From IMG/VR virus record IMGVR_UViG_3300040810_000230, positions 1 through 38,680 of that record: 38,680 bases of DNA; one strand, 5' to 3'. Of this stretch, positions 21,878 to 35,936 are shown in pieces. Numbering within the stretch: the stretch's first letter is position 1; each line of letters opens with the position of its first letter. The position numbers were made by a program, and so were the translations under genes. The stretch comes from a virus. The notes under the pieces were generated by a model. The model saw only the letters and a list, made by a program, of their open reading frames with translations, did not search any database and had not been told where the DNA came from.

Positions 21878-22194
21878 ATGTAATATTTGATAAGCAAGCG
21901 GCAGAACAGTTGGCAGAAAAATATACTATACTACCGCTACCCCCAATTACACAAACAGAAGGCGATAAAACTGTTACTGTTGAGCCTCATGTTGTAATTG
22001 ATATGGAAAAAGTGCCTTTACAAGAGGTTACTTCGTTGGACCAATGGACTGACTTACACAAAGAACTAGTCAGGAACCATATTAAAAAAGACTATAACTT
22101 TTGCGAACAAGCGATAGACCATTTAATGGGCAAGTTTAAAGGTGAGCTAGATTCTTATTATCAGCACATATTAAATGAAGTTAACGATAAATAA
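21874..22194 (+). CDS. Hypothetical phage protein, 106 aa
   Basis: This is a small soluble protein with a Pro-rich early segment (Leu-Pro-Leu-Pro-Pro-Ile-Thr) and a helical C-terminal half (Leu-His-Lys-Glu-Leu-Val-Arg-Asn-His-Ile-Lys-Lys). No family is recognised. Its ATG overlaps the upstream stop, and its own stop overlaps a GATAAATA late promoter motif. Confidence 0.65.
   Translation: MNVIFDKQAAEQLAEKYTILPLPPITQTEGDKTVTVEPHVVIDMEKVPLQEVTSLDQWTDLHKELVRNHIKKDYNFCEQAIDHLMGKFKGELDSYYQHILNEVNDK
22186..22193 (+). promoter_or_regulatory. Putative T4-type late promoter (GATAAATA)
   Basis: GATAAATA lies at the end of the upstream gene, 28 bases before the ATG at 22222, and fits NATAAATA. Confidence 0.6.
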
Positions 22195-22221
22195 TATTAT
22201 TACAATTATGGAGCATTTAGA

Positions 22222-22830
22222 ATGGCAACTAAATTAAATTTAGGAACAAATATTTGGACTAATGAGGCCGCAGTACCTACAGCCACTGGTGCGTTCGCTG
22301 ACCAGTATATGACAGGTGGTAATGAAGGGATAATGAATAGTATAATTACTAATTCTTCTACAATTTCTTCTACCTTACACGCTGATTTAATATCAAAACT
22401 TACATCTAACAGTCTTACGATTTCTAACATTCGTGCAGTTAAAGTTTCAGCAGGGGAAAATGGTTGCATTACTAATATGACTTATACAGGTGGCGACCAC
22501 CAACATTGCATTGCTATAGCGGTTGGTGCTGACATTAGTATAACTTCGCACGACATGACTGGCAAAACAGCAATCGGGGTATCGGACTTTACAGATGCTG
22601 AATTGGTGCATTATACAAATGCAGGCGATGCTGATACACTTGATAACACACTAAGATCTAATGAAGTTACAGCATTAGAAACTTTTACAAATACTGCTTT
22701 TATTTTAGATGTGTGTACGCCAATTAGTTATCGTAGCAGTGGCGCCGCTGGTTGGGTTATATTTGCTGGATTATCAGACACAACAGAAGCAGGGTTACAA
22801 ACAGCATTAACAGATTACGTTATTTCATAA
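22222..22830 (+). CDS. Tandem paralogue A, 202 aa, possible virion or surface protein
   Basis: This is a Thr/Ser-rich, beta-type protein with no signal peptide. It shares a conserved core with the next gene: His-Asp-(Met/Val)-x-x-x-x-x-x-Gly-Val-x-Asp, His-Tyr-x-Asn-x-Gly-Asp-x-Asp-Thr, Leu-Glu-Thr-(Phe/Tyr)-Thr-(Asn/Asp)-Thr-Ala-Phe-Ile and a C-terminal Leu-Ser-Asp block. The His and Asp spacing (Gly-Gly-Asp-His-Gln-His-Cys then His-Asp) could bind metal. A late promoter precedes it and a 2OG-oxygenase-like gene follows in the same unit. No named family is recognised. Confidence 0.7.
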   Translation: MATKLNLGTNIWTNEAAVPTATGAFADQYMTGGNEGIMNSIITNSSTISSTLHADLISKLTSNSLTISNIRAVKVSAGENGCITNMTYTGGDHQHCIAIAVGADISITSHDMTGKTAIGVSDFTDAELVHYTNAGDADTLDNTLRSNEVTALETFTNTAFILDVCTPISYRSSGAAGWVIFAGLSDTTEAGLQTALTDYVIS

Positions 22831-23448
22831 GTGAATTTTTTAAAGTTAGATTTTGGTATATCAAATTATTTTGATCAAGATTTTAAATTAACTTGGCAAG
22901 ATGGACCGCACGGTTATCAAACTTTGTACTCTGGTAATACTGGTAATACAGGATTAAACAACCGTGTTGTTACCGACTCTTCAAAATTTTTAAACTATTT
23001 CACATCTAACTTTATTTCTACGTTAAACGAAACTAGGTTAGAACCAGTGACAGTGTCTTCTTATAAGTTGAACGGTGTACACGATGGGAAACTTTGTAGA
23101 CATACTGTAGAAGGCGAAGAGGTGTGTTGTTTATTCGTTTTACATGGCAGTGCTAGTATTAGTTGTAACACACACGACGTATCTAACATCAACGAGTATG
23201 GTGTGCCTGACGCAAACACTGTTTTATATCATTATATTAATCCTGGAGACCAAGACACTGAGGGAAATTTTTTATCGTGTTCACAAGTTCCAATATTAGA
23301 AACTTATACGGACACTGCATTTATTGCGGATCAGTCAGTTGCACATTCTTTTACAAACTTAGAAGGCACAGGGTACGTTACTATCGTAGTTTTTAGTTTA
23401 TCAGACCGTAAGTCGTTAGAATCATCTTTTTCAAAATACATAATATGA
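22831..23448 (+). CDS. Tandem paralogue B, 205 aa
   Basis: This paralogue of the upstream gene keeps the His-Asp, His-Tyr-Ile-Asn-Pro-Gly-Asp-Gln-Asp-Thr and Leu-Glu-Thr-Tyr-Thr-Asp-Thr-Ala-Phe-Ile-Ala-Asp blocks. It starts differently, with Leu-Asp-Phe-Gly-Ile-Ser-Asn-Tyr-Phe and aromatic residues. The GTG start at 22831 follows the upstream stop without a gap, so it depends on coupling. Divergence is high, so the duplication is old. Function is unknown. It overlaps the 2OG-oxygenase-like gene by 4 bases. Confidence 0.7.
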   Translation: MNFLKLDFGISNYFDQDFKLTWQDGPHGYQTLYSGNTGNTGLNNRVVTDSSKFLNYFTSNFISTLNETRLEPVTVSSYKLNGVHDGKLCRHTVEGEEVCCLFVLHGSASISCNTHDVSNINEYGVPDANTVLYHYINPGDQDTEGNFLSCSQVPILETYTDTAFIADQSVAHSFTNLEGTGYVTIVVFSLSDRKSLESSFSKYII

Positions 23449-23960
23449 CGCACATTGAAAAATTAAACTTACCAAAAATACCGGACACAGTAATAACCTC
23501 TTTACTGGAGCAAAATCCTGACTTAGGAAACTATAGTTATGTTTGCGAGCCAGCGTATAACGGTATAGCTCACTTTTCTTCTTATACTATTGATGTGTCT
23601 GCATTAAGTTGGTTTAAAGAAAATAACTTAGACAGTTATTTTTGGAACATACAAACTTTGAAAGACGGTACAAACTTAAATGCTCACAGAGATGATAGAC
23701 GCACACATGTTATAATGTACATAATAGATCCAGGTGGAGAAAATGTAAAAACTTGTTTTTATCATAAATTACTGGATAAAGAATACGAACCTATAAAACC
23801 TATCCCCAAAGAGGAACTAGAATTAGTATACGAAGAAGTACTGGAAGCCGGTAACTGGTATAAACTTTCAGTGCAAGACATTCATAGCGTTGAAAACTTA
23901 CAATCTACTAGATTGTGTTTAACTAGACAACTACCCGACGTTCCTTTAGATTTACTTTAA
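23445..23960 (+). CDS. 2OG-Fe(II) oxygenase-like protein, 171 aa
   Basis: The C-terminal half carries the facial triad of a double-stranded beta-helix oxygenase: His81-Arg-Asp83 in Leu-Asn-Ala-His-Arg-Asp-Asp, distal His147 in Gln-Asp-Ile-His-Ser-Val-Glu, and Arg156 about nine residues later, the usual 2-oxoglutarate-binding position. Such small enzymes hydroxylate proteins or small molecules in the cytoplasm and are frequent in marine phages. The two tandem paralogues upstream, on the same transcript, are possible substrates (inference). It converges with the reverse-strand gene, overlapping it by 9 bases. Confidence 0.75.
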   Translation: MTHIEKLNLPKIPDTVITSLLEQNPDLGNYSYVCEPAYNGIAHFSSYTIDVSALSWFKENNLDSYFWNIQTLKDGTNLNAHRDDRRTHVIMYIIDPGGENVKTCFYHKLLDKEYEPIKPIPKEELELVYEEVLEAGNWYKLSVQDIHSVENLQSTRLCLTRQLPDVPLDLL

Positions 23961-25202
23961 AATTTTTCTTAATTTGCTCCCAAGAGTTCCTGGACTGGAA
24001 TAAACACTATTAGCAAATACACATCTTTGATTATTTGGAATATCACTAAATTTTTCGTATTGTAGATTTTTGTGATAAGAGTGAATTTTTGTCAACTGAT
24101 TAGACTCTGCTAATGCTAAATGAAAGTTATCAACTAATTCTTTCCAAGCAATTTCTTCTAAGTTGTTATAGAAGTGATTAAAGTTGTAATCCAGAGTTGG
24201 TAGAATTTCTTCGTACATTTCCTTTTTTTCTTTTTCCGACAAATTACATATCTTGTTTAACTGTCCTACAACTTTTAGTATTCTAATATTAGGGTCATAT
24301 TCCTCATCGTAACTTTCATCGATGACATTGTCGAATGTTTTAAATCCGTAACTTTTTAAATATTTTAATGCACCAGGAGTACTTAATACTAAAAATGGCT
24401 GCCTTGCAACAATAGGTTTGAATATTTTTTCAGTTAAGTGAACCGTCTTTTCATAAAAACATGTTTCACTTACTACATGCCAAAATGCACTCGTCCATAC
24501 AGAATATTCTGGTTCTGCACTAGAGTCATCTTCACTATATAATGATGTTTGTACCCTGTGACTAGTCTTTACTTGGCTACAAAAACTAATTATATCTTGT
24601 CTAGTTTTAGAATTTAAATGCATGTTGTCTAATTCTTCTGACCATTCATCTATATTATAAGATACTATTCCATCACCGAGTAGTCCCTGTTTGTATAATT
24701 GAGATAGAAATATCAGTCGATATATCCTAGGTCCTTTGTAAAGATTATTTAGATTTATATAACTTGCTCCTTGCCATATATTATTAACTTTAGGAGCGTA
24801 CTCAATGGATCTAAACCAATCTAAACTTGCAAAAGCATGATAAAAATAATACCATTTTGATAGTTTTAATTTTTTACACAAAGCGTCAACTTTTGGACTG
24901 TGTAATTCACTTGTAGCAAATATTCCACCGTCTATCCCAATGTAATCGTTATTAAATTCTTTTGTAAAAATATTGTACATGTTAGCGACCGTATTATGAT
25001 CGTACACTGGTTCTTGATCATAAAAGAATACATTTTGCAAATTAAACAAAACCTGATTAGTATTAAAGATATCAGTATTCATTGTACTGATATCTTTTAG
25101 GTTGTTACATTTTCCAAATTCGTACAAAAATGAGCCAGAAAGACTATTTGGGCGTAGGAAATTAGCATTTATAATGTTGTAAATGTTGTCTACATTAAAC
25201 AT
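23952..25202 (-). CDS. Glycosyltransferase-like protein (GT10-type C-terminal motif)
   Basis: This 416-residue soluble protein has the C-terminal block His-Leu-Thr-Glu-Lys-Ile-Phe-Lys-Pro, Gln-Pro-Phe-Leu-Val-Leu and Gly-Phe-Lys-Thr-Phe, then Asp-Glu-Ser-Tyr-Asp. This resembles the nucleotide-sugar domain of fucosyltransferase/exostosin-type enzymes. The same block occurs in the gene at 34812, so the two are distant paralogues. The upstream half differs, as expected for the acceptor domain. It is the only long reverse-strand gene inside the window and starts back to back with the curli-like module. It could modify host lipopolysaccharide or the secreted repeat proteins (inference). Confidence 0.7.
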   Translation of the reverse strand: MFNVDNIYNIINANFLRPNSLSGSFLYEFGKCNNLKDISTMNTDIFNTNQVLFNLQNVFFYDQEPVYDHNTVANMYNIFTKEFNNDYIGIDGGIFATSELHSPKVDALCKKLKLSKWYYFYHAFASLDWFRSIEYAPKVNNIWQGASYINLNNLYKGPRIYRLIFLSQLYKQGLLGDGIVSYNIDEWSEELDNMHLNSKTRQDIISFCSQVKTSHRVQTSLYSEDDSSAEPEYSVWTSAFWHVVSETCFYEKTVHLTEKIFKPIVARQPFLVLSTPGALKYLKSYGFKTFDNVIDESYDEEYDPNIRILKVVGQLNKICNLSEKEKKEMYEEILPTLDYNFNHFYNNLEEIAWKELVDNFHLALAESNQLTKIHSYHKNLQYEKFSDIPNNQRCVFANSVYSSPGTLGSKLRKILK

Positions 25203-25263
25203 GTATGTTTATGTCTTTTTTAACGAGTAAATACAAATATAGTAATAATTGAGGGAAGACTGA

Positions 25264-25713
25264 GTGAAATTCTTATTAACACTGATATTTATGGTGCCAG
25301 TACTAGTACTAGCAGATAATTTAACATTCAACTACAAAAACCCTGCCTTTAGCGGCATAGGGTATAGTGCCCACGTATTAACTATCGAGCAGTTGGAATC
25401 TAACCGTCGTAAAGACAATGAAAAAGCCGCAAAAGCACTACAGGACGAAGCAGACAGGGACTTGCGTTCTACTAATACATGGAAGTTTCAAAACAACTTA
25501 GAGTCTAGGATTTACAGTCAGCTGAGTAAGCAGATAAGTGATAGTTTATTTGGTGAAGGCTCAGCAGAGGACGCAGAGGGCGAAGTAACAACGCCATTTG
25601 GAGATACAGTAGCATGGTCTCGTATTAATGATGTTATAACTGTTACTGTGTCAGACAGCAACGGAGACGTTTTATCCACATTTTCTGTACCTGTAGGAGA
25701 TTTTGCTTTCTGA
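25264..25713 (+). CDS. csgF: Curli assembly factor CsgF homologue
   Basis: The 149-residue protein has a signal peptide ending Val-Leu-Ala (17) and a mature N-terminus Asp-Asn-Leu-Thr-Phe-Asn-Tyr-Lys-Asn-Pro-Ala-Phe-Ser-Gly. This closely follows E. coli CsgF (Thr-Phe-Gln-Phe-Arg-Asn-Pro-Asn-Phe-Gly-Gly), the peptide that inserts into the CsgG pore. A helical middle with Gln-Leu-Ser-Lys-Gln-Ile and a C-terminal strand region ending Thr-Val-Ser-Asp-Ser-Asn-Gly also fit. It tethers the curli fibre to CsgG at the cell surface. GTG start with GAGGGA ribosome binding site. Its stop overlaps the csgG start (TGATG), the same gene order as in E. coli csgFG. Confidence 0.9.
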   Translation: MKFLLTLIFMVPVLVLADNLTFNYKNPAFSGIGYSAHVLTIEQLESNRRKDNEKAAKALQDEADRDLRSTNTWKFQNNLESRIYSQLSKQISDSLFGEGSAEDAEGEVTTPFGDTVAWSRINDVITVTVSDSNGDVLSTFSVPVGDFAF

Positions 25714-26594
25714 TGAGAAATATATTAATACTCCTATTATGCTTGGTTATATCAGGTTGTGCTAGTTTGGCAGGACAAACTAAATTTGATGCACCTGAAA
25801 TAACACAAAGCCTAGAAGAGGAATTTAAGTCTATCCCGCCTCCCAAAGACGGTCATATATATGTTGCAGTATATGGATTTCAAGATAAAACTGGGCAACG
25901 TAAGCCCAGCGAAAGAATTGCACATATATCTACAGCAGTAACACAGGGAGCGGCTGACTGGGTAATCAAGAGCCTTAAAGAAGTTGGCGGCGGCACATGG
26001 TTTAAGGTAATTGAGCGTGTGGGGTTAGACAACCTTGCAAAAGAAAGACAGATTATTAGACAACAGCGTGAAACCGTAGATGACAAGAGAGCGTTGAAAC
26101 CACTTAAGTATGCAGGTATAATTTTAGAAGGAGCAATTATAGGATATGACAGTAATATAAAAACAGGAGGTAGTGGAGCTAGATACTTAGGTATAGGCGT
26201 GCAACAGGAATACAGGGAAGATATAATGACAATATCTATGCGTATTGTTTCTACACAAACAGGCGAGGTATTGGTAGCAGTTAGTGGAACTAAGACTATT
26301 TTAAGTTATGGACAAAGTTTTGGTGTGTTTAAGTTTATAGAAATGGGAACCGAAGCAGTAGAACTTGACGCAGGATCTTACACTAATGAACCAACAACAG
26401 TCGCACTTCAAAGAGCAATTGATGCGTGTATAATAGAAATAATCAAGCAGGGCAAAACGCATGGGTACTGGGATTACGAAAATCCAGTAACTGTGGGTTC
26501 TTCGGAACGAATAAATGAAGTTGCAAACGAGCTCAATGATGAGGAAATGTTACAAAAAGAGTTCGAAAAACAACTAAAAATGATAGAAAAGTAA
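25713..26594 (+). CDS. csgG: Curli secretion pore CsgG homologue (outer-membrane lipoprotein)
   Basis: The 293-residue protein is a full-length CsgG. The lipoprotein signal has Ile-Ser-Gly-Cys16. Blocks matching E. coli CsgG include Val-Ala-Val-Tyr-Gly-Phe-Gln-Asp-Lys-Thr-Gly-Gln, Ser-Thr-Ala-Val, Ile-Glu-Arg-x-Gly-Leu-x-Asn-Leu, Glu-Gly-(Ala)-Ile-Ile-Gly-Tyr-(Asp/Glu)-Ser-Asn, Gly-Gly-x-Gly-Ala-Arg-Tyr-x-Gly-Ile-Gly and Lys-Thr-Ile-Leu-Ser-Tyr. It should form the nonameric outer-membrane channel exporting amyloid subunits. Residues aligned with the E. coli constriction (Tyr51, Asn55, Phe56) look different here: Glu67, His71, Ile72. The C-terminus is a charged helix. Neighbours are CsgF and three repeat or accessory proteins. 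CsgE is not seen. Confidence 0.93.
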   Translation: MRNILILLLCLVISGCASLAGQTKFDAPEITQSLEEEFKSIPPPKDGHIYVAVYGFQDKTGQRKPSERIAHISTAVTQGAADWVIKSLKEVGGGTWFKVIERVGLDNLAKERQIIRQQRETVDDKRALKPLKYAGIILEGAIIGYDSNIKTGGSGARYLGIGVQQEYREDIMTISMRIVSTQTGEVLVAVSGTKTILSYGQSFGVFKFIEMGTEAVELDAGSYTNEPTTVALQRAIDACIIEIIKQGKTHGYWDYENPVTVGSSERINEVANELNDEEMLQKEFEKQLKMIEK

Positions 26595-26630
26595 CTTTTT
26601 TAATATAATAGCAGTATATTATATAACGTA

Positions 26631-26670
26631 GTTATTTAAATAACATTAAGTGGTATACCATCACTATAAT
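26631..26670 (+). promoter_or_regulatory. Palindrome and putative -10 before the curlin-like gene
   Basis: A perfect 14-bp palindrome GTTATTTAAATAAC (26631-26644) is followed by an 8-bp palindrome GGTATACC and TATAAT (26665-26670). The -35 region is weak. The 113-base gap between csgG and the repeat gene is the longest in this module. It may hold an activated or repressed promoter. Confidence 0.45.
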
Positions 26671-26707
26671 CTAGGTACGACGGCTAAGGCCAAGGGAGCA
26701 TTAGAAA

Positions 26708-27349
26708 ATGCGTATTTTAAGGACTATAAGCACGTTATTTGTTGCTGTGGTATGTAGTTCTAGTTTTGCTAACGATGTTTATATCGAACAAGCAGGTGAC
26801 AGTACTGATATTGATATCATTCAAAAGAATGGTACTAACACTTTGAATGACTCAACTGATGCCGCCACTATTAGCGGTGACAGTATAACGTTTAGTTTAA
26901 CACAGGACGGTAACTTGAACAATGCTGACGTGGAAATAGAAAACTCAGCAACATCTAGTAATGTTGATATCGACGTTGCAGGTGGAAGTAACGAAACTAA
27001 TGTTGGTATCGACGGTGCATCAAGCACAACAGTAGACATTGACGTTACAGGTGATTCCAACTGGGTATCAGTATGTGGAGCCAATGACGGTGCCAGTGTG
27101 GCTGCGGCGGAATGTTCTACAGGTATTACCGACGGTTCCACTAGTAACACAGCAAACATTACTGGTGATAGCAACATTGTTAATATTGAAGCAAGCGGTG
27201 CTAGTCAGACCAACTCGGTTACAATAGGTGCAGATGCAACGGACATTAGTGATAACAACACAGTTAATATTAGTAATGACGTAACAGGTGCAGATGTTAT
27301 TATTGACATGGACGGACAGGATAATACCGTAGATGTTACAGTTCAGTAG
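26708..27349 (+). CDS. Secreted curlin-like repeat protein (CsgA-like)
   Basis: The 213-residue protein has a signal peptide ending Ser-Phe-Ala (21). The mature N-terminus is Asn-Asp-Val-Tyr-Ile-Glu-Gln-Ala-Gly-Asp-Ser-Thr-Asp-Ile-Asp-Ile-Ile-Gln. The rest is irregular Asn/Asp/Thr/Val-rich repeat units of about 20 residues (Gly-Asp-Ser-Asn-x-Val-x-Ile, Gly-Ala-Ser-x-Thr-x-x-Val-x-Ile) with almost no Lys or Arg. This matches the design of curlin beta-arch repeats (Gln/Asn ladders), though more Asp-rich and less regular than CsgA. It is the likely fibre subunit exported through the CsgG pore encoded just upstream. AGGGAG ribosome binding site; 17-base overlap with the FecR gene. Confidence 0.8.
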   Translation: MRILRTISTLFVAVVCSSSFANDVYIEQAGDSTDIDIIQKNGTNTLNDSTDAATISGDSITFSLTQDGNLNNADVEIENSATSSNVDIDVAGGSNETNVGIDGASSTTVDIDVTGDSNWVSVCGANDGASVAAAECSTGITDGSTSNTANITGDSNIVNIEASGASQTNSVTIGADATDISDNNTVNISNDVTGADVIIDMDGQDNTVDVTVQ

Positions 27350-28424
27350 GACATTATTTGTCATATTATTTTTTGTCTCTTCAACTGTTTTAGCAAAGGG
27401 GATAGGAAATGTCACGGAACAGACTGGTCCTGCTGAAATCAGCAGAAAAAAAGAAACACTGCCATCTGAAAAAGGCTCTGAAGTCTTTATGCAAGATGCT
27501 ATCCAAACTACGAAAAGCAAGTTAGGGATAACGTTTGAGGACGACACTAAAGTAAAGATGACAGAACAAAGCAAACTCGTTATAGACGAGTTTCTTTACG
27601 ATCCAGGAAATAAAAAGCCCGGTAAACTGGGAATGAAGGTAGCAATAGGAACAGTTAGGTATGCGTCTGGTAAGATTGCCAAAGACAATGCAGAAAATGT
27701 AAACATACAGACACCAACTGCTACTATTGCTGTTCGAGGAACAGACTTTACAATGACTGTAGACGAGATAGGTCGCAGTCTTGTTATACTACTACCAAGT
27801 TGCCCTACTAGTAATGAGATAGATTGTTACGTAGGCGAGATCGAAGTTATGACTGATATGGGTGCTGTGTTAATGAATCAAGCATTCCAAGCCACATTAG
27901 TAACTAGTAGAAACAGTATGCCTACTGAACCAAAACTTATAGATATAAGTGAGGCACTGATAGATAATTTTTTAATTGTTAGTCCACCAGAAGAAGTTAG
28001 ACTTGCACAAGAAGAACTTGAGCGTAGTAACAACCCACTAGATAAAGACTTATTGGAATTTGACGAACTAGACGTAAATGAATTAGACCAAGAAGATGAG
28101 CTCGCTAACAACTACGAACTAGACATTAACTTTTTGGACTTTGAATTTTTAGATAATATGTTGGACCTAACTACAATACAGTTAGACAGAGACGAACTAG
28201 AAACTAACGAAGTGCTACCAACAATACAGCAGTACAGTTGGATAATTTGGTATGCAAACGAAGAAGAAATTTTTATGAGAAGCGAACGTCCTCCACACGT
28301 GGCAGAGATAAGTTTACCTAGAGAAACAGAAGGTAATGTTTATATCGTGCAGGACGATATTCCAGCAGACATATCAGTACAAGGTGGATCAAGTGTTACG
28401 ATTGATATTATTCAGTCTCAGTAG
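27333..28424 (+). CDS. Exported FecR-domain protein with curlin-like C-terminal tail
   Basis: The 363-residue protein has a signal peptide ending Val-Leu-Ala (21). A FecR-type domain follows at about 25-170: Gly-Ser-Glu-Val-Phe-Met-Gln-Asp, Thr-Phe-Glu-Asp-Asp-Thr-Lys-Val-Lys-Met, Val-Asn-Ile-Gln-Thr-Pro-Thr-Ala-Thr-Ile-Ala-Val-Arg-Gly-Thr-Asp. A very acidic Leu/Asp/Glu-rich middle (about 220-290) follows, and the last 30 residues carry Val-Tyr-Ile-Val-Gln and Ile-Asp-Ile-Ile-Gln, the same motif that opens the curlin-like protein upstream. It could be a periplasmic chaperone, nucleator or fibre anchor. A classical FecR anti-sigma role is unlikely because no sigma factor or receptor is linked. 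Overlaps both neighbours. Confidence 0.78.
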   Translation: MLQFSRTLFVILFFVSSTVLAKGIGNVTEQTGPAEISRKKETLPSEKGSEVFMQDAIQTTKSKLGITFEDDTKVKMTEQSKLVIDEFLYDPGNKKPGKLGMKVAIGTVRYASGKIAKDNAENVNIQTPTATIAVRGTDFTMTVDEIGRSLVILLPSCPTSNEIDCYVGEIEVMTDMGAVLMNQAFQATLVTSRNSMPTEPKLIDISEALIDNFLIVSPPEEVRLAQEELERSNNPLDKDLLEFDELDVNELDQEDELANNYELDINFLDFEFLDNMLDLTTIQLDRDELETNEVLPTIQQYSWIIWYANEEEIFMRSERPPHVAEISLPRETEGNVYIVQDDIPADISVQGGSSVTIDIIQSQ

Positions 28425-29568
28425 TCTACTGTTTTATTTGACTCCAGCAATTGCTGACCTCTACTACGATACCTATCAGGGAACAGGTTCCTATCCAAGT
28501 TTTCCTGGGAATGGCGGAAGTTTAACATACCCTACAAAATTAAGTTCAGGCACGGTGAGCAGTTTGAATTACAATTGGGGTGGTGGTAATGTATTAGACT
28601 CGGGCAGAAATCAACAAGTAATAGTCAACTTCTATGGATACATCACTATCCCAGGCACAGGTAGCCAGGACATACAATTCTATCTGTATGCTGATGATGG
28701 CGTGTATATGAAGTTGGATAACACCGTGGTAATCAACGACTGGCAAGAACAGGCTCCCGGCACGTGGAACTACGTTTCAACAGACCAAACACTCACAGGT
28801 GGACAAACTTATTATATTGATATGTGGTGGTATGAAAACGGTGGCGGCGCCGCAGTTAAGTTATATTGGGATCAATCAGGATCAGTTGCATTGGTGCCTA
28901 GCTCGGCATATTCATTGACCGATCCTAGTGCATCTGGTGCACCTTCAGCAACACCATCATATTCTTCTGGTCCAACTTCTGCACAACAAACTAGAATAAA
29001 CAGTGCTGTATCTGCGGTTAATTCAGGTGAAAGTAATAATATCGATATAGATATAGATGGCGATGATAATGATGTAATGATAACACAAGCAGGTGAGCCC
29101 AGTTATCTGCTATTGAACATTACAGGAAATTTAAACTCCGTGGATATTGACCAAAATGCTACTACTGTAGGCACATCATATGGGCATTACACAGAAGCAG
29201 AGATATTAGGTAATAGTAATAGTATAGATTTGTTACAAACAGGCAGTGGAAACAAATCGGCATTTATTGATATTGCTGGTAACAGTAACACGGCAAATCT
29301 GATACAAAAAGACAGTGGCAACCACTATCTAATGTTAGATTTTATAGGTGATGGCAATACTGCCACAGTTACGCAGGAAGGTTCAGGTGACCATGCGGCT
29401 ACTATTGAACTTACTGAAAGTGGAGGCGCCTGGACTTTTGGTCTTACTCAAAGTGGATCAACAAATAAAACTTACAGTTTACCGCATTCAATGAGCGATG
29501 GTTCTACAGTGACTGGAACTTGTTCAACGCCAGCAGGATGCTCTTTAACTATCACACAAGGTGACTAA
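28393..29568 (+). CDS. Exported PA14-domain protein with curlin-like repeats
   Basis: The GTG at 28393 is chosen because AAGGTGG lies just upstream and it gives a clean signal peptide ending Ala-Ile-Ala (21). An ATG at 28336 would add 19 residues and spoil it. The mature 370 residues have a PA14-type domain at about 25-165 (Tyr-Ala-Asp-Asp-Gly-Val-Tyr-Met-Lys-Leu-Asp, Tyr-Tyr-Ile-Asp-Met-Trp-Trp-Tyr-Glu-Asn, Val-Lys-Leu-Tyr-Trp), a Ser/Pro/Ala linker, then curlin-like repeats (Gly-Asn-Ser-Asn-Ser-Ile-Asp-Leu-Leu-Gln-Thr-Gly and relatives) to the C-terminus. PA14 domains bind glycans. The fusion suggests an adhesive tip or coat built into the amyloid fibre. It overlaps the FecR gene by 32 bases and closes the module. 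Confidence 0.8.
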   Translation: MLRLILFSLSSLLFYLTPAIADLYYDTYQGTGSYPSFPGNGGSLTYPTKLSSGTVSSLNYNWGGGNVLDSGRNQQVIVNFYGYITIPGTGSQDIQFYLYADDGVYMKLDNTVVINDWQEQAPGTWNYVSTDQTLTGGQTYYIDMWWYENGGGAAVKLYWDQSGSVALVPSSAYSLTDPSASGAPSATPSYSSGPTSAQQTRINSAVSAVNSGESNNIDIDIDGDDNDVMITQAGEPSYLLLNITGNLNSVDIDQNATTVGTSYGHYTEAEILGNSNSIDLLQTGSGNKSAFIDIAGNSNTANLIQKDSGNHYLMLDFIGDGNTATVTQEGSGDHAATIELTESGGAWTFGLTQSGSTNKTYSLPHSMSDGSTVTGTCSTPAGCSLTITQGD

Positions 29569-29573
29569 ATATC

Positions 29574-29603
29574 TTGACTTTATAAGTTAAATTGTATTAT
29601 AAT
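29574..29603 (+). promoter_or_regulatory. Putative sigma70-type promoter before the PTPS-like gene
   Basis: TTGACT (29574-29579), 18 bases, TATAAT (29598-29603), just after the PA14 gene stop. The leader of about 80 bases to the ATG at 29691 holds no recognised riboswitch. A preQ1-type element was considered but not convincing. Confidence 0.7.
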
Positions 29604-29690
29604 AATGCATGACTAACTTAGTGGCCTCTTTCGACGCTCATCCCACTTTAAATATTCTGCGTGTCATTGTTAACATTAAGGACAACAACA

Positions 29691-30194
29691 ATGGCTAATC
29701 AACCAAGACAATACAAGTACGTAAGTACAAAAGAATATGTAGATCAGTTTCCCTGTGCATATAGGCAATGGCGGGCTGACAGTCACTGCAATCTAATACA
29801 CGGCTATGCGTTTAGTATGCGTTTCTTTTTTGGAACCGACAACTTAGACGTTAGAAACTGGGTAGCAGACTACGGTGGACTAAAAGAACTAAAACAAGTA
29901 TTACAAGATCAATTTGACCATACACTACTGGTTGCTGAAGATGATCCAGAACTAGAAATATACAAGCAACTGCAAGCAAAGAAGTTGGCTAAACTGACCA
30001 TACTGCCAAGACTTGGTTGTGAAGGACTAGCAGACCAATTGTACAAATATGTAAATGGTGTGTATATCCCAGACATGTGGGGTCAAGCAGAAGCAGATAG
30101 ACTTTGGTGTTACAGGGTAGAAGTACGTGAAACACAAAGCAACATGGCTTGGCGTGAAGGTCATAGAGAATGGAACGAGGATCTGTTTGAATAA
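29691..30194 (+). CDS. 6-pyruvoyl-tetrahydropterin synthase/QueD-family protein
   Basis: The ATG at 29691 with AAGGA at 29678-29682 gives 167 residues. An upstream in-frame start at 29661 lacks a ribosome binding site. PTPS/QueD blocks are present: Cys33-x3-His37-Gly, Val-Ala-Asp-Tyr-Gly-Gly-Leu-Lys, Gln-Phe-Asp-His-Thr-Leu-Leu-Val, Cys-Glu-Gly-Leu-Ala-Asp-Gln-Leu and Tyr-Arg-Val-Glu-Val-Arg-Glu-Thr. Family members make 6-carboxy-tetrahydropterin for queuosine or 7-deazaguanine DNA modification, or biopterin. By eye the usual His-Gly-His zinc pair is His37-Gly-Tyr39, and the first zinc His is Tyr24, so metal binding may differ. No queC, queE or dpdA is seen in this window. Confidence 0.82.
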   Translation: MANQPRQYKYVSTKEYVDQFPCAYRQWRADSHCNLIHGYAFSMRFFFGTDNLDVRNWVADYGGLKELKQVLQDQFDHTLLVAEDDPELEIYKQLQAKKLAKLTILPRLGCEGLADQLYKYVNGVYIPDMWGQAEADRLWCYRVEVRETQSNMAWREGHREWNEDLFE

Positions 30195-30315
30195 CGATAC
30201 TTGGAAATGTGATGGTAAGACAGTGGGACATGATGGACACCCTGCTGTCTATCTACCTGCAAATCAAAAGTGTCCCTACTGTGGCAAGGAACAAAAAGAT
30301 GCAGTCACCTTGTGA
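30187..30315 (+). CDS. zf-CHCC zinc-finger mini-protein, 42 aa
   Basis: A TTG start at 30187 with GAGG at 30177-30180 gives a 42-residue protein made almost entirely of a CHCC zinc finger: Trp-Lys-Cys-Asp-Gly, Gly-His-Pro-Ala-Val-Tyr-Leu, Gln-Lys-Cys-Pro-Tyr-Cys-Gly. These are the four ligands and the hallmark Gly-His-Pro and Cys-Pro-Tyr-Cys of the family that includes the NDUFS6-type domain and small proteobacterial proteins. The role in phage is unknown. It overlaps the PTPS gene by 8 bases and the next mini-gene by 17 bases. Confidence 0.75.
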   Translation: MNNDTWKCDGKTVGHDGHPAVYLPANQKCPYCGKEQKDAVTL

Positions 30316-30448
30316 AAAAATCTGTGTTATGGAAAATGGCTACTGCTTAGGGTGTAATCGCACACAGGAAGAAATAGCCAACTGGATCAACTACACGGAT
30401 GAAGAACGTGAACGCATAATGGAAGAACTGTTCGACAGAGAAGTATGA
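30299..30448 (+). CDS. DUF1289 mini-protein, 49 aa
   Basis: The ATG at 30299 is preceded by AAGGA at 30286-30290. The 49-residue product matches DUF1289: Ser-Pro-Cys-Glu-Lys-Ile-Cys, Gly-Tyr-Cys-Leu-Gly-Cys-Asn-Arg-Thr, Glu-Ile-Ala-Asn-Trp, then Glu-Arg-Glu-Arg-Ile-Met. The four cysteines probably bind zinc or an Fe-S cluster. DUF1289 proteins are common small proteins of proteobacteria with unknown function. Upstream in-frame sequence is the wrong frame of the zinc-finger gene, so the short form is preferred. Confidence 0.8.
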   Translation: MQSPCEKICVMENGYCLGCNRTQEEIANWINYTDEERERIMEELFDREV

Positions 30449-30624: not shown

Positions 30625-31025
30625 TGACATACAAAATTTTAACAGAAAATTCAGAAGACAAACTTAACGTCTACGACATAGGTGGTGCTACAGTTAAAGA
30701 CAATGAGACATATCGTGTAAAAGATAACACAACTCTTAATAATTTAGTAGTAAGTTCTACTGAGCTTAAGTCTATGCAAAGTACTCGAGGTCATAAGCAC
30801 CAAGGGCAGGAAGAAGTGTATCATTTCATTAGTGGATATGGAAAGATGGAACTGGACGACAGACAGTTTCATGTAAAAGGAGGTGACATCGTATTGATTC
30901 CGGATGGTTCCTTCCATCGAGTACATAACACTAGTGAGCATGGTGCCTTATATTTTATCTGTGTGTTAACTGTAATAAAGGAAAATGGATTTACTAACTA
31001 TAGTAATGATGTTGAAATGGGATAA
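30624..31025 (+). CDS. Cupin-domain protein
   Basis: The 133-residue protein contains a single cupin barrel. Motif 1 is Gly-His-Lys-His-x-Gly-Gln-Glu-Glu-Val-Tyr-His-Phe-Ile-Ser-Gly-x-Gly. Motif 2 is Gly-Gly-Asp-Ile-Val-Leu-Ile-Pro-Asp-Gly-Ser-Phe-His-Arg-Val-His-Asn. The His-x-His, Glu and second-motif His needed for metal binding are all present. Such cupins are sugar-phosphate isomerases, dioxygenases or binding proteins. Being coupled to radical SAM, SDR and glycosyltransferase-like genes, a role in sugar or cofactor conversion is plausible (inference). TAATG coupling on both ends. Confidence 0.85.
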   Translation: MTYKILTENSEDKLNVYDIGGATVKDNETYRVKDNTTLNNLVVSSTELKSMQSTRGHKHQGQEEVYHFISGYGKMELDDRQFHVKGGDIVLIPDGSFHRVHNTSEHGALYFICVLTVIKENGFTNYSNDVEMG

Positions 31026-32524
31026 TGTTTGCTGTAATACTTACCGTTCCCCGGGTAGCGGCGCTGAGACCAAGTGCGGCTCCGGCTATAATAAAAAGTA
31101 TAATAAAAAGTAAAGGACTAGAAAGTCAGGTACTGGATATTAATCTAGATTTTCACGACCAATTTGGAAGTCGTTTTTCGGAACAATCTTATAACACAAT
31201 CGATGACTATTTCTTTAATCATCTGAATCAACTTGATCAACATGACCAAACTGTATACACAGAATGGATGCAAGACTGGGTTGATCGGATTATACAGATT
31301 AATCCGCAATATCTTTTTATAAGTGTGTTTACTTGGCAAGCACAACGATTTACTAGAGACTTCTTAACATTGTGGAAAACACAAAGTAATATACCTGCGA
31401 TTATTGGTGGGCAGGGCATGACTAAAGAAGAAAACGGAAGTTATTCTAGCAAGCCTGAGTTTGCGCACGAAATGAAGGCGCAAGGGCTAATTGCGCACTG
31501 GATCAGAGGCGAGGCTGAAACCACTATCCCTGCGATAATTGACGGAAAGTTTGATACACCGGGCATTGATACAGACACCTTGGCAGATAGGAGTGATGTT
31601 AACTCGCATGGTTTCTTAGACTTCTCAGACTTTGATATAAAACGATATCACAGTGGGTACAAACAAGGTGTGTTACCTGTAGAAACCAGCAGAGGTTGTG
31701 TGCGAAATTGTGTATTTTGTGATATCCCAACCTGGCACGGAAAGTTTAGGTACAAAAACGGTACTAAACTCAGCAACGAACTAATACATTACTACGAAAA
31801 GTATCAAGTGAAAGACTTTTTCTTTCACGACGCATTATGCAACGGTAGTGTAAAAGACTTTAAGTTGTTTAATCATAACTTAATGGACTACTACACACAA
31901 AACAATTTACCAGAGCGACACTTTAAATACAGCAGTCATTATATTGTTCGTAGTGAACGAATAATGCCTGAAGAAGATTTTAAGTTTATGGGATCAGCAG
32001 GTGCCGAATGTATGGTAATTGGGGTCGAGTCCGGGAGTGATCGTGTTAAGGCAGACATGCGAAAAGGCTTTAACAACGCTGACTTAGATTATAATATGAA
32101 AATGTTTAGCAAGTACGGGATCACTGTGTACTTGTTACTGATTGTAGGATTTCCTACAGAAACTAGAGACGACTTTAACGAAACACTAACGATGTTAAAA
32201 CGTTACCAGCCTTATGTTGCTGACGGGACTGTGATTGGTGTTAACCTTGGCACAACATTAACCATTGAAGAAGGATCACCGATATACACAGATTATTCAA
32301 AACTAAACATAGTAGGCACAAATGGTAATAGACCGCAAGGTCCGGATTGGCATTGCGAAACAAACCCAACTTTGACCTATAAAGAGCGTATTATGCGCAG
32401 AATCGAAGCACAAGAATATGCTACTAGCTTAGGTTATACATTCTGGAAAGGCGATGATCAATTGAAGTTACTAATGGATAACTATACCACAAGATTACAC
32501 AAACTAGCAGGAGTAATACACTAG
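31025..32524 (+). CDS. B12-binding-type radical SAM enzyme
   Basis: The 499-residue protein has an N-terminal cobalamin-binding-like Rossmann region at about 1-190 (Pro-Arg-Val-Ala-Ala-Leu-Arg-Pro, Tyr-Leu-Phe-Ile-Ser-Val-Phe-Thr, Ile-Ile-Gly-Gly-Gln-Gly). The radical SAM core follows, with Cys225-x3-Cys229-x2-Cys232 for the 4Fe-4S cluster in Ser-Arg-Gly-Cys-Val-Arg-Asn-Cys-Val-Phe-Cys-Asp. SAM-binding strands include Ile-Gly-Val-Glu-Ser-Gly-Ser and Leu-Leu-Ile-Val-Gly-Phe-Pro-Thr-Glu-Thr. The family contains methylases, ring-contracting and sulfur-inserting enzymes. The substrate cannot be told, and the usual cobalamin His is not obvious, so B12 use is uncertain. TAATG/TAGTG coupling with both neighbours. 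Confidence 0.88.
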   Translation: MFAVILTVPRVAALRPSAAPAIIKSIIKSKGLESQVLDINLDFHDQFGSRFSEQSYNTIDDYFFNHLNQLDQHDQTVYTEWMQDWVDRIIQINPQYLFISVFTWQAQRFTRDFLTLWKTQSNIPAIIGGQGMTKEENGSYSSKPEFAHEMKAQGLIAHWIRGEAETTIPAIIDGKFDTPGIDTDTLADRSDVNSHGFLDFSDFDIKRYHSGYKQGVLPVETSRGCVRNCVFCDIPTWHGKFRYKNGTKLSNELIHYYEKYQVKDFFFHDALCNGSVKDFKLFNHNLMDYYTQNNLPERHFKYSSHYIVRSERIMPEEDFKFMGSAGAECMVIGVESGSDRVKADMRKGFNNADLDYNMKMFSKYGITVYLLLIVGFPTETRDDFNETLTMLKRYQPYVADGTVIGVNLGTTLTIEEGSPIYTDYSKLNIVGTNGNRPQGPDWHCETNPTLTYKERIMRRIEAQEYATSLGYTFWKGDDQLKLLMDNYTTRLHKLAGVIH

Positions 32525-33060
32525 TGCAAGTTAGTTTAGATATTGGATTCAGCGTAGGTAGGAAACTAGGCGACCCTGATGTTAAAATATTAATTGACGA
32601 CTATGTTGTGTTGTACGAAGGATCTGCTGTTGACCAGTTCTCTAGAGTCATTGACTTAAATGCTGGTGAACACGAACTTAAGATCGTGCATCACGGAAAG
32701 ACAGATCAAGATCATGTATTAGACGATCAGGGTAATATTCTAGTAGATAAATTTATTAATATTGATACTATGGTCATTGATGGAATTAAACTGACCGATA
32801 GGGAATTACACACAGGAGAATTCTGGCCAGTATACAGTTTAAGTTACGTTGAGGATATGCAGGAGTTACCAGAAAGTATTTGCCCTAACTTGTATCTGGG
32901 TCACAATGGAACTTGGAGATATAAATTTTTTGCTCCTTTTACTGAGTGGATAATTCGTGAGCGCAAACAAGGACCGCAACTTGACGATACTATTTTTAAA
33001 AGTAGTCAGCAAATACTGGAAGATGCAAAGAATTTCTTCAAAGACATACGGGAATTATGA
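32524..33060 (+). CDS. Beta-sandwich-type phage protein, 178 aa
   Basis: A GTG start overlaps the radical SAM stop (TAGTG). The N-terminal 95 residues alternate strands typical of a small beta-sandwich (Val-Ser-Leu-Asp-Ile-Gly-Phe, Val-Lys-Ile-Leu-Ile-Asp-Asp-Tyr-Val-Val-Leu, Gly-Glu-His-Glu-Leu-Lys-Ile-Val-His-His-Gly). A conserved-looking Leu-Gly-His-Asn-Gly-Thr-Trp block and a helical tail follow. Its opening strands resemble carbohydrate-binding-type domains, and a similar architecture (Gly-His-Gly, Trp) is seen in the reverse-strand gene at the right end. Glycan binding is a guess that fits the cluster. Confidence 0.6.
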   Translation: MQVSLDIGFSVGRKLGDPDVKILIDDYVVLYEGSAVDQFSRVIDLNAGEHELKIVHHGKTDQDHVLDDQGNILVDKFINIDTMVIDGIKLTDRELHTGEFWPVYSLSYVEDMQELPESICPNLYLGHNGTWRYKFFAPFTEWIIRERKQGPQLDDTIFKSSQQILEDAKNFFKDIREL

Positions 33061-33083
33061 AAATTACTTTTGAAATTGAATGA
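33057..33083 (+). other. Eight-codon frame, possible remnant of a duplicated beta-sandwich gene
   Basis: ATGA coupling at the end of the beta-sandwich gene opens a frame Met-Lys-Ile-Thr-Phe-Glu-Ile-Glu and then a stop. Its pattern mirrors the start of the preceding protein (Met-Gln-Val-Ser-Leu-Asp-Ile-Gly). It may be the stub of a lost tandem copy or only a translational relay to the next gene. Confidence 0.3.
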
Positions 33084-33089
33084 ACACTA

Positions 33090-34199
33090 ATGTTAACTTA
33101 TAATTCTGTCGACGAGTATCAAATTGAAATAACCACATACTGCAATGCGGCTTGTCCGCAATGTCCACGCAATCTCTGTGGTTACGGAAAGAATCCACAC
33201 ATGCCGCTAGTGCATTTAGATGCGGATGTTATTGATAATGCATTTACTCCTGATCTGTGTAATAGACTAAGACAAGTGTTTTTTTGTGGCAGTTACGGTG
33301 ATCCCATTATGCATCCTAAGTTCTTGGACATACTAAGAAAGTTCAGACAGAAGAATCCAACACTATGGTTGTACTTTCACACCAACGGAGGTGTACACAA
33401 CAAGGACTACTGGCAAGAAGTAGCAGATATAATGGCAGGCTACGGACAGATAGACTTTGGTATTGATGGTCTAAGTGATACACTAGATTTGTACCGTAGA
33501 AATGTAGACTATGATAAGGTTATACGCAATGCCAGGGCTTTTATTGATCGTGGTGGTCGTGCGCAGTGGAACTATATAGTGTTCAAGCATAACGAACATC
33601 AAGTTGAACAAGCAAAGCAACTAGCACAAGAGTACGGCTTTTTTAACATCTTGATACGCAAAACTGGGCGGTTCTTTGATCATAAAAATCTGGTTGAATT
33701 CAACAGTTGGCCTGTGTATAATAGCAAGGATGATGTAGCATACCAGTTGGAGTTGCCTACACAAGAGCAATACAGAAACAACAGTATGCTAGGCTTGACT
33801 GGATTAAAGACAGAGTATCCGGATATTAAGGATTACTTTGCTAAAACAGAAATTAGATGTGATGCAGAAATAGGAAACAAGGTGGCAGTAAATGCAGAAG
33901 GCGTTGTGTTGCCTTGTAACTTTTTTAATCACAATTTGTATGATTTAAGATTTCACGATACAGATACACTGCCAAGGGCTAATGCACTCAGTGGACAGCC
34001 TAATCAAGTTAAAGAATTCTTAGATCAATACGGATTAAACAATTTGTCTATTAAAAACAACAGTTTAGCAGACATATTCAACAACAAGTTTTGGCAAGAC
34101 TTGCACAGCAGTTTCACAGGCAATAGACTGTTTGAGTGTGCAATGACTTGCGGTAAACGTTTAACAAAGGTCTGGGACCAAGGAGGCAATCGTAGATGA
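33090..34199 (+). CDS. Radical SAM/SPASM enzyme
   Basis: The 369-residue protein has the radical SAM cluster motif Cys18-x3-Cys22-x2-Cys25 in Thr-Tyr-Cys-Asn-Ala-Ala-Cys-Pro-Gln-Cys-Pro, the Gly-Ser-Tyr-Gly-Asp-Pro segment and Phe-Gly-Ile-Asp-Gly-Leu. The C-terminal SPASM-type region has Val-Ala-Val-Asn-Ala-Glu-Gly-Val-Val-Leu-Pro-Cys-Asn-Phe-Phe and further cysteines (Glu-Cys-Ala-Met-Thr-Cys-Gly-Lys) for an auxiliary cluster. SPASM enzymes modify peptides or sugars. No obvious precursor peptide is seen nearby, which slightly favours a sugar or amino-acid substrate. It overlaps the SDR gene by 4 bases. Confidence 0.88.
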   Translation: MLTYNSVDEYQIEITTYCNAACPQCPRNLCGYGKNPHMPLVHLDADVIDNAFTPDLCNRLRQVFFCGSYGDPIMHPKFLDILRKFRQKNPTLWLYFHTNGGVHNKDYWQEVADIMAGYGQIDFGIDGLSDTLDLYRRNVDYDKVIRNARAFIDRGGRAQWNYIVFKHNEHQVEQAKQLAQEYGFFNILIRKTGRFFDHKNLVEFNSWPVYNSKDDVAYQLELPTQEQYRNNSMLGLTGLKTEYPDIKDYFAKTEIRCDAEIGNKVAVNAEGVVLPCNFFNHNLYDLRFHDTDTLPRANALSGQPNQVKEFLDQYGLNNLSIKNNSLADIFNNKFWQDLHSSFTGNRLFECAMTCGKRLTKVWDQGGNRR

Positions 34200-34780
34200 A
34201 AGTATTAGTAACAGGCGGTAACAGAGGGTTGGGAAAGCACTTAGTAGAAGTGTTTGATACTGCTGACGGAATCAGTAGAGCTGACGGGTTTGATATTACA
34301 AAAAACATAGACGACATCGCGGCTCGCAGTATAGATTATGATGTAGTTGTTAACAACGCATTTGATGGTCCTCCACAAGAAGATTGGGCTAACTTTGGCC
34401 AGACTAACTTGTATATAAAAATTTACGACACATGGAAAAAACATAACAAATCAGGTTATATTTTTAATATCGGTAGTGTAGGTGAGCAGGGTATTGTTGC
34501 TCCCGAGCCACGTTGGGAAACTTATAGAGTCAGCAAGGCAGCACTAGCACATGCTAGTAAACAAGGTACGCAAGCATTTAAGCAAAATGCAGTATCTTTT
34601 AAAACTACCTTGATTACCCCTGACAGGTTAGATACAGAACTAAGTCGTAGCAGACCAAATTGGACTGGTAACGGAATAAACCTAGTAGACATTTCAAATT
34701 TTATCAAGTATGCTACACAAACACAAGATAATACTTGCATAGAAGAAATAACTTTTTATTGTGCGTTAGATTATCAATAG
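34196..34780 (+). CDS. Short-chain dehydrogenase/reductase
   Basis: The 194-residue protein has the SDR nucleotide motif Thr-Gly-Gly-Asn-Arg-Gly-Leu-Gly (6-13), Val-Asn-Asn-Ala (52-55), catalytic Ser94 in Asn-Ile-Gly-Ser, and Tyr110-x3-Lys114. It is short for an SDR (usually about 250), with a reduced region between the cofactor and catalytic motifs and a shortened C-terminus, so the substrate pocket may be minimal. It should oxidise or reduce a hydroxyl/keto group with NAD(P)H, probably on a sugar intermediate given the glycosyltransferase-like gene 31 bases downstream. Confidence 0.88.
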   Translation: MKVLVTGGNRGLGKHLVEVFDTADGISRADGFDITKNIDDIAARSIDYDVVVNNAFDGPPQEDWANFGQTNLYIKIYDTWKKHNKSGYIFNIGSVGEQGIVAPEPRWETYRVSKAALAHASKQGTQAFKQNAVSFKTTLITPDRLDTELSRSRPNWTGNGINLVDISNFIKYATQTQDNTCIEEITFYCALDYQ

Positions 34781-34811: not shown

Positions 34812-35936
34812 ATGGTAAAAAGATTCGCACATAAAATATTTACACTTGTGCCACCTGCTAGTGCAATAGATGTTTATGGTGACTGGTTAGGTTTAGATCA
34901 TGTAAACTGGCAATTTACAGACAACTATCAGGAAGCACTAGCACAGCCTTACAAGATTGCTATGATGCCTGCGCTGTTTAACGTCAATGGCAGTTACACC
35001 TATAGAGCAAAGTTTGCTAAGATGGACTTTAGTAAATTTGATCTTGTTGTACTAAGTGACATAGAATGCCATAGTCAAGATTATATATTAGAAAATTGTA
35101 TTAAACCTGCTGGTATTACGAACTATCTAGTGGCGGTTGGCGGAATGTACAGCGAACTTACTGATCCTGACTTTATATACAGACCTTGGTGGATGTTTCA
35201 TCATCGTCAACTGAATCACATACACATTACACAATCTATCAAGAAGCGTGAGTTTTTGTTTGATGCATTACTGGGCGCACGTAAATTGCATCGTAGTTAT
35301 GTAATGGCACGTTTTCAGCAACGTCCTGATTTGTTGTCAAAGTCCATTGTAAATTACAGAGATACGTTTATTAACCACTGGGGCAACGACCCTTCCTACT
35401 TATATGATCATGTAAACAAAGTACTAGATGGCAAGCAATTACAGTGGCCTTATGTAAGTGAGAACTTTACAGAACAACAAACACAAGATTTAGAACCACA
35501 TCAAATCAGTGAAGTTACACCTTGGAATATATACGAAAAGACACACTACAGTATATGCTGTGAAAGTTTTAGTAATAATCCAGATGACACAAATCCAGGA
35601 CCTTTCTTTCTAACTGAGAAGACTGCTAAAATGTTTATGGCGCAACGTATGTTTATAATGTTTGCACCACAACATACATTACGGTTTATAAAAAGCCTAG
35701 GCTTTGACACATTCGATTCTATTATAGACGAAAGTTACGATGACATAGCAGACCCTAGAGAAAGATTTGACAGAGCTTTTGATCAAGTGGAATATCTTGC
35801 TGAACAAGATCCCACAGAAGTCTACGAGAAAGTATGGCCTATCACACAATATAACTTGTGGATGTTTATAGACCTTATTAAAAAAACTAAGGAAGCAATG
35901 TTGGATAAGTTACTGTATAAAATAAATACTTTATAA
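34812..35936 (+). CDS. Glycosyltransferase-like protein (GT10-type C-terminal motif)
   Basis: The 374-residue soluble protein ends in the block Phe-Leu-Thr-Glu-Lys-Thr-Ala-Lys-Met, Arg-Met-Phe-Ile-Met-Phe and Ser-Leu-Gly-Phe-Asp-Thr-Phe, then Asp-Glu-Ser-Tyr-Asp. The reverse-strand gene at 23952 shares it, and it is reminiscent of fucosyltransferase-type nucleotide-sugar domains. The N-terminal half is unrelated by eye. It closes the cupin/radical SAM/SDR series and overlaps the cyclase start (TAATG). The likely role is transferring a modified sugar onto host surface glycan or a phage structure (inference). Confidence 0.72.
   Translation: MVKRFAHKIFTLVPPASAIDVYGDWLGLDHVNWQFTDNYQEALAQPYKIAMMPALFNVNGSYTYRAKFAKMDFSKFDLVVLSDIECHSQDYILENCIKPAGITNYLVAVGGMYSELTDPDFIYRPWWMFHHRQLNHIHITQSIKKREFLFDALLGARKLHRSYVMARFQQRPDLLSKSIVNYRDTFINHWGNDPSYLYDHVNKVLDGKQLQWPYVSENFTEQQTQDLEPHQISEVTPWNIYEKTHYSICCESFSNNPDDTNPGPFFLTEKTAKMFMAQRMFIMFAPQHTLRFIKSLGFDTFDSIIDESYDDIADPRERFDRAFDQVEYLAEQDPTEVYEKVWPITQYNLWMFIDLIKKTKEAMLDKLLYKINTL
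35921..35928 (+). promoter_or_regulatory. Putative T4-type late promoter (AATAAATA) before the cyclase
   Basis: AATAAATA lies inside the end of the glycosyltransferase-like gene, 7 bases before the ATG at 35936. If used, the cyclase mRNA would be almost leaderless. The motif could also be coding coincidence (Lys-Ile-Asn-Thr). Confidence 0.45.

Follow-up and report, generated by a model that had tools for sequence, protein, structure and literature searches.

The purpose of curli genes in phages found across the ocean is disputed, with uptake, lysis, a shield against superinfection and 'sibling capture' all having been put forward. The same question is raised by IMG/VR record IMGVR_UViG_3300040810_000230, a linear viral record of 38,680 bases that we analysed at its full length (the window) and that carries a cluster of csgF, csgG, curlin and fecR genes with a CHASE2-cyclase gene further downstream. 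From gene content and order, we consider it near certain that this module encodes a complete phage-borne type VIII (curli) secretion system (T8SS) of a FecR-cyclase subtype. Comparison with related sequences indicates that the second curlin subunit repeatedly exchanges its N-terminal head while keeping its curlin stem, and we think it probable that the module would place fibres on infected cells and that these adhere via the head. Coordinates of the features are given in Table 1.

Table 1. Features of the curli module in the window, and the related bacterial operons.
Feature	Position	Strand	Evidence
csgF, curli assembly factor	25264-25713	+	PF10614 1.6e-12; phrog_35372 1.1e-35
csgG, outer-membrane lipoprotein pore	25713-26594	+	PF03783 1.6e-54; lipobox LVISGCAS
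csgA-like, divergent curlin, putative main fibre subunit	26708-27349	+	family-level profile matches
Exported FecR-domain protein	27333-28424	+	PF04773 4.7e-9; AlphaFold2 mean predicted local distance difference test score (pLDDT) 87.8
Curlin-like C-terminal FecR tail (NVYIVQ..ADISVQGGSSVTIDIIQ)	28332-28415	+	invariant Gln, profile comparison
Second curlin subunit with N-terminal PA14 head	28336-29568 (listed open reading frame)	+	PF07691 2.8e-9; PF07012 3.4e-11
Swappable head, PA14 type in the window	28415-28943	+	unrelated sequence in sister contig L004
Curlin-repeat stem of second subunit	28944-29568	+	~99% identity to L004
CHASE2-adenylate/guanylate cyclase	35936-37969	+	PF05226 1e-30; PF00211 4.3e-19
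Bacterial FecR-cyclase curli operons	L166 5065-11085; L168 4995-11052; L170 5032-11055

The five contiguous open reading frames (ORFs) of the module are real and lie at or very near the positions given in the initial annotation, and four of them pass their Pfam cut-offs. CsgF scores 48.2 bits against PF10614 (cut-off 25.8) and CsgG 184.8 bits against PF03783 (cut-off 20.8). The CsgG family profile also retrieves the solved CsgG structure 3x2r (2.1e-64), and a CsgG lipobox is present in 63/68. The window CsgF retains the N-terminal NPxFxG motif as KNPAFSG, a [NSGD]PxFxG-like motif is found in 66 of 80 phage CsgF clusters, and the N-terminus aligns weakly with the E. coli CsgF of 6l7a (E=0.07). 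We considered and rejected a phage-specific widening of the CsgG constriction, as alphaproteobacterial CsgG likewise lacks the E. coli pattern at this position. The csgA-like protein had been called curlin-like; searched alone it falls below the PF07012 cut-off (E=0.14, 12.6 bits against 20.7), and the name holds at family level, where 68 of 82 relatives match at E<=0.01 and the family profile retrieves the solved curlin 8c50 (2e-17) and E. coli CsgA 8enq (6.5e-6). The second subunit scores 43.3 bits against the same family, and the strands of its stem are spaced by ~22-28 residues. Its start is likelier to be GTG 28393 or TTG 28402 than the listed 28336, a position within fecR. Signal peptides on all five products are supported as far as a crude hydrophobicity test (positive in 91-99% of each module family against 25% of control ORFs) and the CsgG lipobox can support them.

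Two scans of IMG/VR, from more than 500 confirmed candidates each, yielded 160 loci, and gene order is near-constant across the viral loci fetched. Linkage counts were restricted to distinct CsgG-selected loci with enough flanking sequence, which avoids circularity. CsgF, curlin and FecR are each present, in order, in 44/44 of these loci, and the cyclase in 24/24 of those with at least 7.5 kb downstream. Three loci with CsgF-CsgG alone are cut by contig ends. Profile matches and synteny in all 44 loci together reject chance or misannotation. The initial view of a self-contained curli-type export system in a phage, comprising pore, CsgF, two curlin-repeat subunits and an exported FecR protein, withstood its own computational checks: CsgF and CsgG clear the Pfam thresholds, and a pore without a repeat subunit was found in none of the 44 related loci. 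Its five-gene extent missed the cyclase, a sixth gene that in the window lies ~6.3 kb beyond the rest of the module, with QueD, DUF1289, cupin, radical-SAM and SDR genes intervening. CsgE, which had not been seen at first reading, was also not found in our search with PF10627 (0/10 records: the window, seven related large phage contigs and two related bacterial genomes; the E. coli control matched). CsgE is reported missing from phage modules and from Alphaproteobacteria (PMC9599517), and because of this we do not count it as obligatory for a T8SS.

Head exchange can be followed by comparing the window with its sister contig L004. Nucleotide identity between them is 98.2% over 25159-28414 and 98.7% over 28944-29722, and between 28414 and 28944 it is 34-43%, the background level for unrelated DNA. 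The L004 head is of a type other than PA14, and this other type recurs in distant modules. Further close pairs show a head swap or exchange of the whole gene. The second subunits of HTVC008M and L159 share 83% identity at the C-terminus and 33% in the head, and FecR identities of 98% are accompanied by second-subunit identities of only 42% (L024 and L030) and 25% (L037 and L059). In all there are seven head groups, counting single sequences, as well as headless forms. Mapped onto a quick FecR tree with Shimodaira-Hasegawa-like approximate likelihood ratio test (SH-aLRT) support only, the head labels need 17 changes where the minimum is 7. PA14-type heads (8 rows) account for 7 changes, at least 6 of which are forced by well-supported branches, and their labels cluster no more tightly than shuffled ones (181/500 shuffles were as low); another head type requires 8 changes. 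The stem is better conserved (0.31-0.47) than the head (0.16-0.25), and Pfam recognises PA14 in 7/57 second subunits and F5/8 type C in 7/57. We infer from these patterns that the second subunit would be a fibre-borne adhesin selected for a changing target.

The FecR protein consists of a signal peptide, a FecR domain, an acidic LD-rich linker and a C-terminal beta domain. AlphaFold2 predicts the FecR and beta domains confidently using 79 homologues, and the linker weakly (pLDDT ~55-70). A structure comparison matches the predicted FecR domain to the signalling domain of PupR (6ovk, Z 15.4) and to periplasmic domains of other anti-sigma proteins. The traits of an anti-sigma regulator such as FecIR or PupR (a cytoplasmic anti-sigma domain, a transmembrane helix and a neighbouring ECF sigma gene) were not found: the signal peptide runs straight into the FecR domain with no cytoplasmic anti-sigma domain, and the module, which consists of the csg genes and the cyclase, contains no sigma-factor or receptor gene. 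A role as a structural or signalling adaptor is therefore likelier than one in iron-citrate regulation. In the model, residues 21-116 (27393-27680) also resemble the surface-anchoring domain of an RTX adhesin, 5ix9 (Z 7.0, 73/76 residues, 2.2 Å). An RTX-type retention anchor in the first half of FecR was left as a lead, given a Z below 8, no sequence match and no paper found; on the modelled fold, FecR domains might serve as retention anchors.

The C-terminal tail of the FecR protein carries a curlin-like signature. Its last glutamine (Q361) is invariant in 81 relatives and Q340 nearly so. A C-terminus of the form [IVL]x[IVL]xQ is found in 71/81 FecR clusters against 4/667 other phage ORFs, and in 0/96 bacterial FecR proteins without csg genes. 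Spacing in the tail is curlin-like, its position frequencies (G at -9, N/T at -6, I at -4 and -2, Q at 0) parallel those of CsgA-like C-termini, and a profile-profile comparison with the CsgA family gives P=2e-4 with the C-termini in register (CsgF control 0.013). Scored against bacterial curlin half-repeats, the tails are moderately raised, with a median of -1.2 against -12.4 for shuffles and -20.1 for control ORFs. We call this tail "curlin-like", not curlin.

The same gene set also occurs in bacteria. Three chromosomal loci contain CsgF, CsgG, one or more curlins, FecR and a CHASE2-cyclase: one in Hyphomonas sp. TMED17 (L170, Hyphomonadaceae) and two in Caulobacteraceae metagenome-assembled genomes (MAGs; L166 and L168), all amid ordinary metabolic genes. 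In a midpoint-rooted tree whose outgroups were alphaproteobacterial only, their CsgG proteins group with phage CsgG and away from the canonical set (support 100/99). The Caulobacteraceae FecR terminates in NVTQD, a further likeness to the phage module. The operons differ from that module in having no headed second subunit after fecR, and the FecR tail of L170 is weak. A strongly phage-like FecR was found in just one genome of the Caulobacterales sample. Four further candidates (L164, L165, L167 and L169) were rejected as bacterial operons. All are on short contigs, L167 is truncated, one bin holds four CsgG copies, and L164, L165 and L169 fall inside the phage CsgG branch. These last three are phage curli modules binned in Flavobacteriaceae and Rhodobacteraceae MAGs, and curli calls in such MAGs may therefore be viral. 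An alphaproteobacterial source of the phage module fits these sequence relationships and has also been argued in PMC9599517. The trees and gene orders suggest that FecR and cyclase belonged to a bacterial curli operon before phage capture, and transfer in the reverse direction, from phage to bacteria, is possible.

FecR and the cyclase are also found together without curli genes. A CHASE2-cyclase neighbours bacterial FecR genes without csg genes in 25/72 loci (L172-L243), and we read FecR plus CHASE2-cyclase as a probable common two-gene sensory pair. The window cyclase is 40% identical to that of HTVC008M and 48% to that of the Caulobacteraceae locus L166. A LysM-FecR/CHASE2-kinase operon in Burkholderia regulates biofilm (PMC5192318). 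Like the phage module it places an exported FecR protein beside a CHASE2 sensor, but it has no csg genes, a kinase instead of a cyclase, and a peptidoglycan-binding LysM domain in place of the curlin-like tail.

The window module is a further example of a phage curli cluster that had already been described. The operon was reported in 2020, though described there as partial (PMC7029224), and in 2022 a complete pelagiphage cluster of CsgF-CsgG-CsgA/B-FecR-second CsgA/B-adenylate cyclase (PMC9599517), which has transferred between phage families, is present at all 65 GOV2.0 ocean stations and has component transcripts detected at sea. The deposited HTVC008M record likewise holds CsgF, CsgG and a CsgB-like protein, so the initial statement that no complete phage module was known does not stand. 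The window order, CsgF-CsgG-CsgA/B-FecR-(CsgA/B)-cyclase, matches that of the pelagiphage T8SS, and HTVC008M and the HTVC023P-type podophages share the six-gene order and orientation (PMC9599517, PMC7029224); HTVC008M also has a PA14-type head. The window differs from the pelagiphage cluster in its large T4-like, gp23-bearing relative and in the displaced cyclase, and its CsgG is 46-49% identical to those of cultured phages. The histidine kinase that precedes csgF in podophages was not recognised in the four genes scanned just upstream. Melnitz, a Methylophilales phage of OM43, has the same six-gene order, but its second subunit opens directly with curlin repeats. Canonical alphaproteobacterial curli loci resemble the window in having CsgF and CsgG adjacent and curlin-repeat genes nearby, but FecR or cyclase occurs in 0/25 of them and their CsgG branches away from the phage group.

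We propose that the host Sec system would export the subunits during infection and that CsgG and CsgF would carry them across the outer membrane, where the curlins would assemble on the infected cell as beta-solenoid fibres. A minor component of these fibres, the second subunit would display a binding domain. A head swap would alter what the infected cell or its debris adheres to, as tail fibres alter host range. The likeliest benefit would be that fresh hosts or carriers are held near the burst, or that the cell is shielded from competitors. More speculatively, the FecR domain would remain in or near the periplasm while its tail joins the fibre base as anchor or nucleator, and FecR would signal to the inner-membrane cyclase, through the latter's CHASE2 domain, that fibres are being assembled. 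The signalling idea follows from the linkage of FecR and cyclase in phages and bacteria together with the Burkholderia biofilm operon. We offer the role of FecR as an anchor or nucleator reporting to the cyclase as a tentative one. Equally tentative is the full scheme of a programmable adhesin carried by phages that differ greatly in size, in which a constant stem with a recombination-exchanged head and a curlin-tailed FecR coupling assembly to the CHASE2-cyclase might let the cell both alter and sense its stickiness.

Several observations weigh against this proposal. The window's own first curlin is degenerate, and the CsgE gate is absent from the records searched. Pfam Curlin_rpt (PF07012) matches the tails of 0/81 FecR proteins, only 12/81 tails score above the 99th percentile of shuffled versions of themselves in the bacterial curlin half-repeat score, and a PDB comparison of the predicted tail domain gave no clear match (best Z 3.4, with no curlin listed). 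We assume that the FecR protein takes the Sec and CsgG routes, and fibres, secretion and expression in this phage are predicted from its genes. OM43 cells infected with the module-bearing Melnitz showed no clumping (PMC9004378); this result concerns a phage whose second subunit has no separate head.

The alternative that survives best is that the fibres are an anti-superinfection coat or decoys, with head variation serving escape from phages or grazers. This was suggested in PMC9599517, where aggregation was proposed too, so that neither idea was new in the initial annotation. A variable exposed domain on a conserved stem would suit a coat as well as an adhesin, and the sugar- or ligand-binding folds of the PA14 and F5/8 type C heads point to binding without separating the two views; on balance we regard a coat as unlikely. 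It is more improbable that cyclase and FecR are unrelated cargo travelling with the curli genes. The 6.3 kb of other genes before the cyclase in the window would be expected of cargo, but the cyclase is nearby wherever enough downstream sequence exists, the order is repeated in the three bacterial operons, and FecR-CHASE2 pairs occur without csg genes.

A lysis or permeability device, in which CsgG acts as an open outer-membrane channel that times lysis in the manner of a pinholin or secretin and the fibre genes are irrelevant, was proposed for Melnitz on the premise that csgA/B are absent (PMC9004378). The initial suggestion that the module opens the outer membrane at lysis resembles this proposal. 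The deposited Melnitz record annotates two curlin-repeat proteins, contradicting the premise, and all 44 loci contain curlin. The missing CsgE gate, the lack of clumping and the altered CsgG and CsgF modelled in that study speak for such a device, but the altered constriction loop is common to alphaproteobacterial CsgG and the NPxFxG-type CsgF motif is largely kept. The device also leaves head swapping and the cyclase unexplained, and we consider it very improbable. Holins and pinholins are small hole-formers of the inner membrane that time lysis; CsgG homologues are outer-membrane lipoproteins. Least probable of all is an uptake channel that imports nutrients or cofactors while FecR senses iron (among the proposals in PMC7029224 and PMC9599517), since the ungated pore and the PupR-like cell-surface signalling fold would suit it but FecR here has a signal peptide, lacks a cytoplasmic anti-sigma domain, has neither a sigma factor nor a receptor encoded beside it in the module, and is partnered by a cyclase and the fibre genes.

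On synteny, the window is most readily interpreted as part of a very large T4-like phage related to the 289-kb L085. The two are syntenic on both flanks of the curli region, with identities of 93% for QueD, 86% (85.8%) for the cyclase and 87% for an AAA-type protein. A T4-type gp23 and the curli module occur together in seven contigs of 161-349 kb, with partial gp23 in two more, and these carriers extend the module beyond the described pelagiphages. No tyrosine integrase was found in the window, which is only a fragment, and a lytic life style is thereby not proven. Scans of the window for transfer RNA, transfer-messenger RNA and Rfam families gave no matches, and an endolysin is encoded elsewhere in the window, apart from the curli module.

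A second variable island (22160-25158) lies immediately upstream of csgF. None of the fetched loci matches its genes at 22222-23448, and the minus-strand gene at 23952-25202, which adjoins csgF, has ~50% identity to L004, though L004 is otherwise near-identical; neither this gene nor the three before it match Pfam. Downstream of the module are a QueD-like 6-pyruvoyl-tetrahydropterin synthase (29661-30194), a single queuosine-pathway gene in the phage, and a DUF1289 protein (30209-30448), with 93% and 80% identity in L085. Between the cupin gene and the gene at 34812-35936, two radical-SAM genes, an unknown gene and an SDR gene occupy 31025-34780. Their absence from the syntenic L085 suggests that they were recently inserted between the curli genes and the cyclase, or else lost from L085. 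A csgG gene at 226-954 of OR851715.1 (Salmonella phage S.Kent 1-2-1, 1499 bases) is probably host sequence.

Three features of these systems are apparently unreported. We found no published mention of head exchange on a constant stem (PMC9599517 contains no occurrence of PA14 and speaks of the second subunit only as a "second curli repeat gene"), no earlier report of the curlin-like FecR tail, and no published description of chromosomal FecR-cyclase curli operons, here grouping with phages. The recurrent exchange of heads is evidence of selection for a fibre that binds something variable, and the curlin-like FecR tail, together with the sister operons in bacteria, hints at a curli subtype that includes its own signalling.

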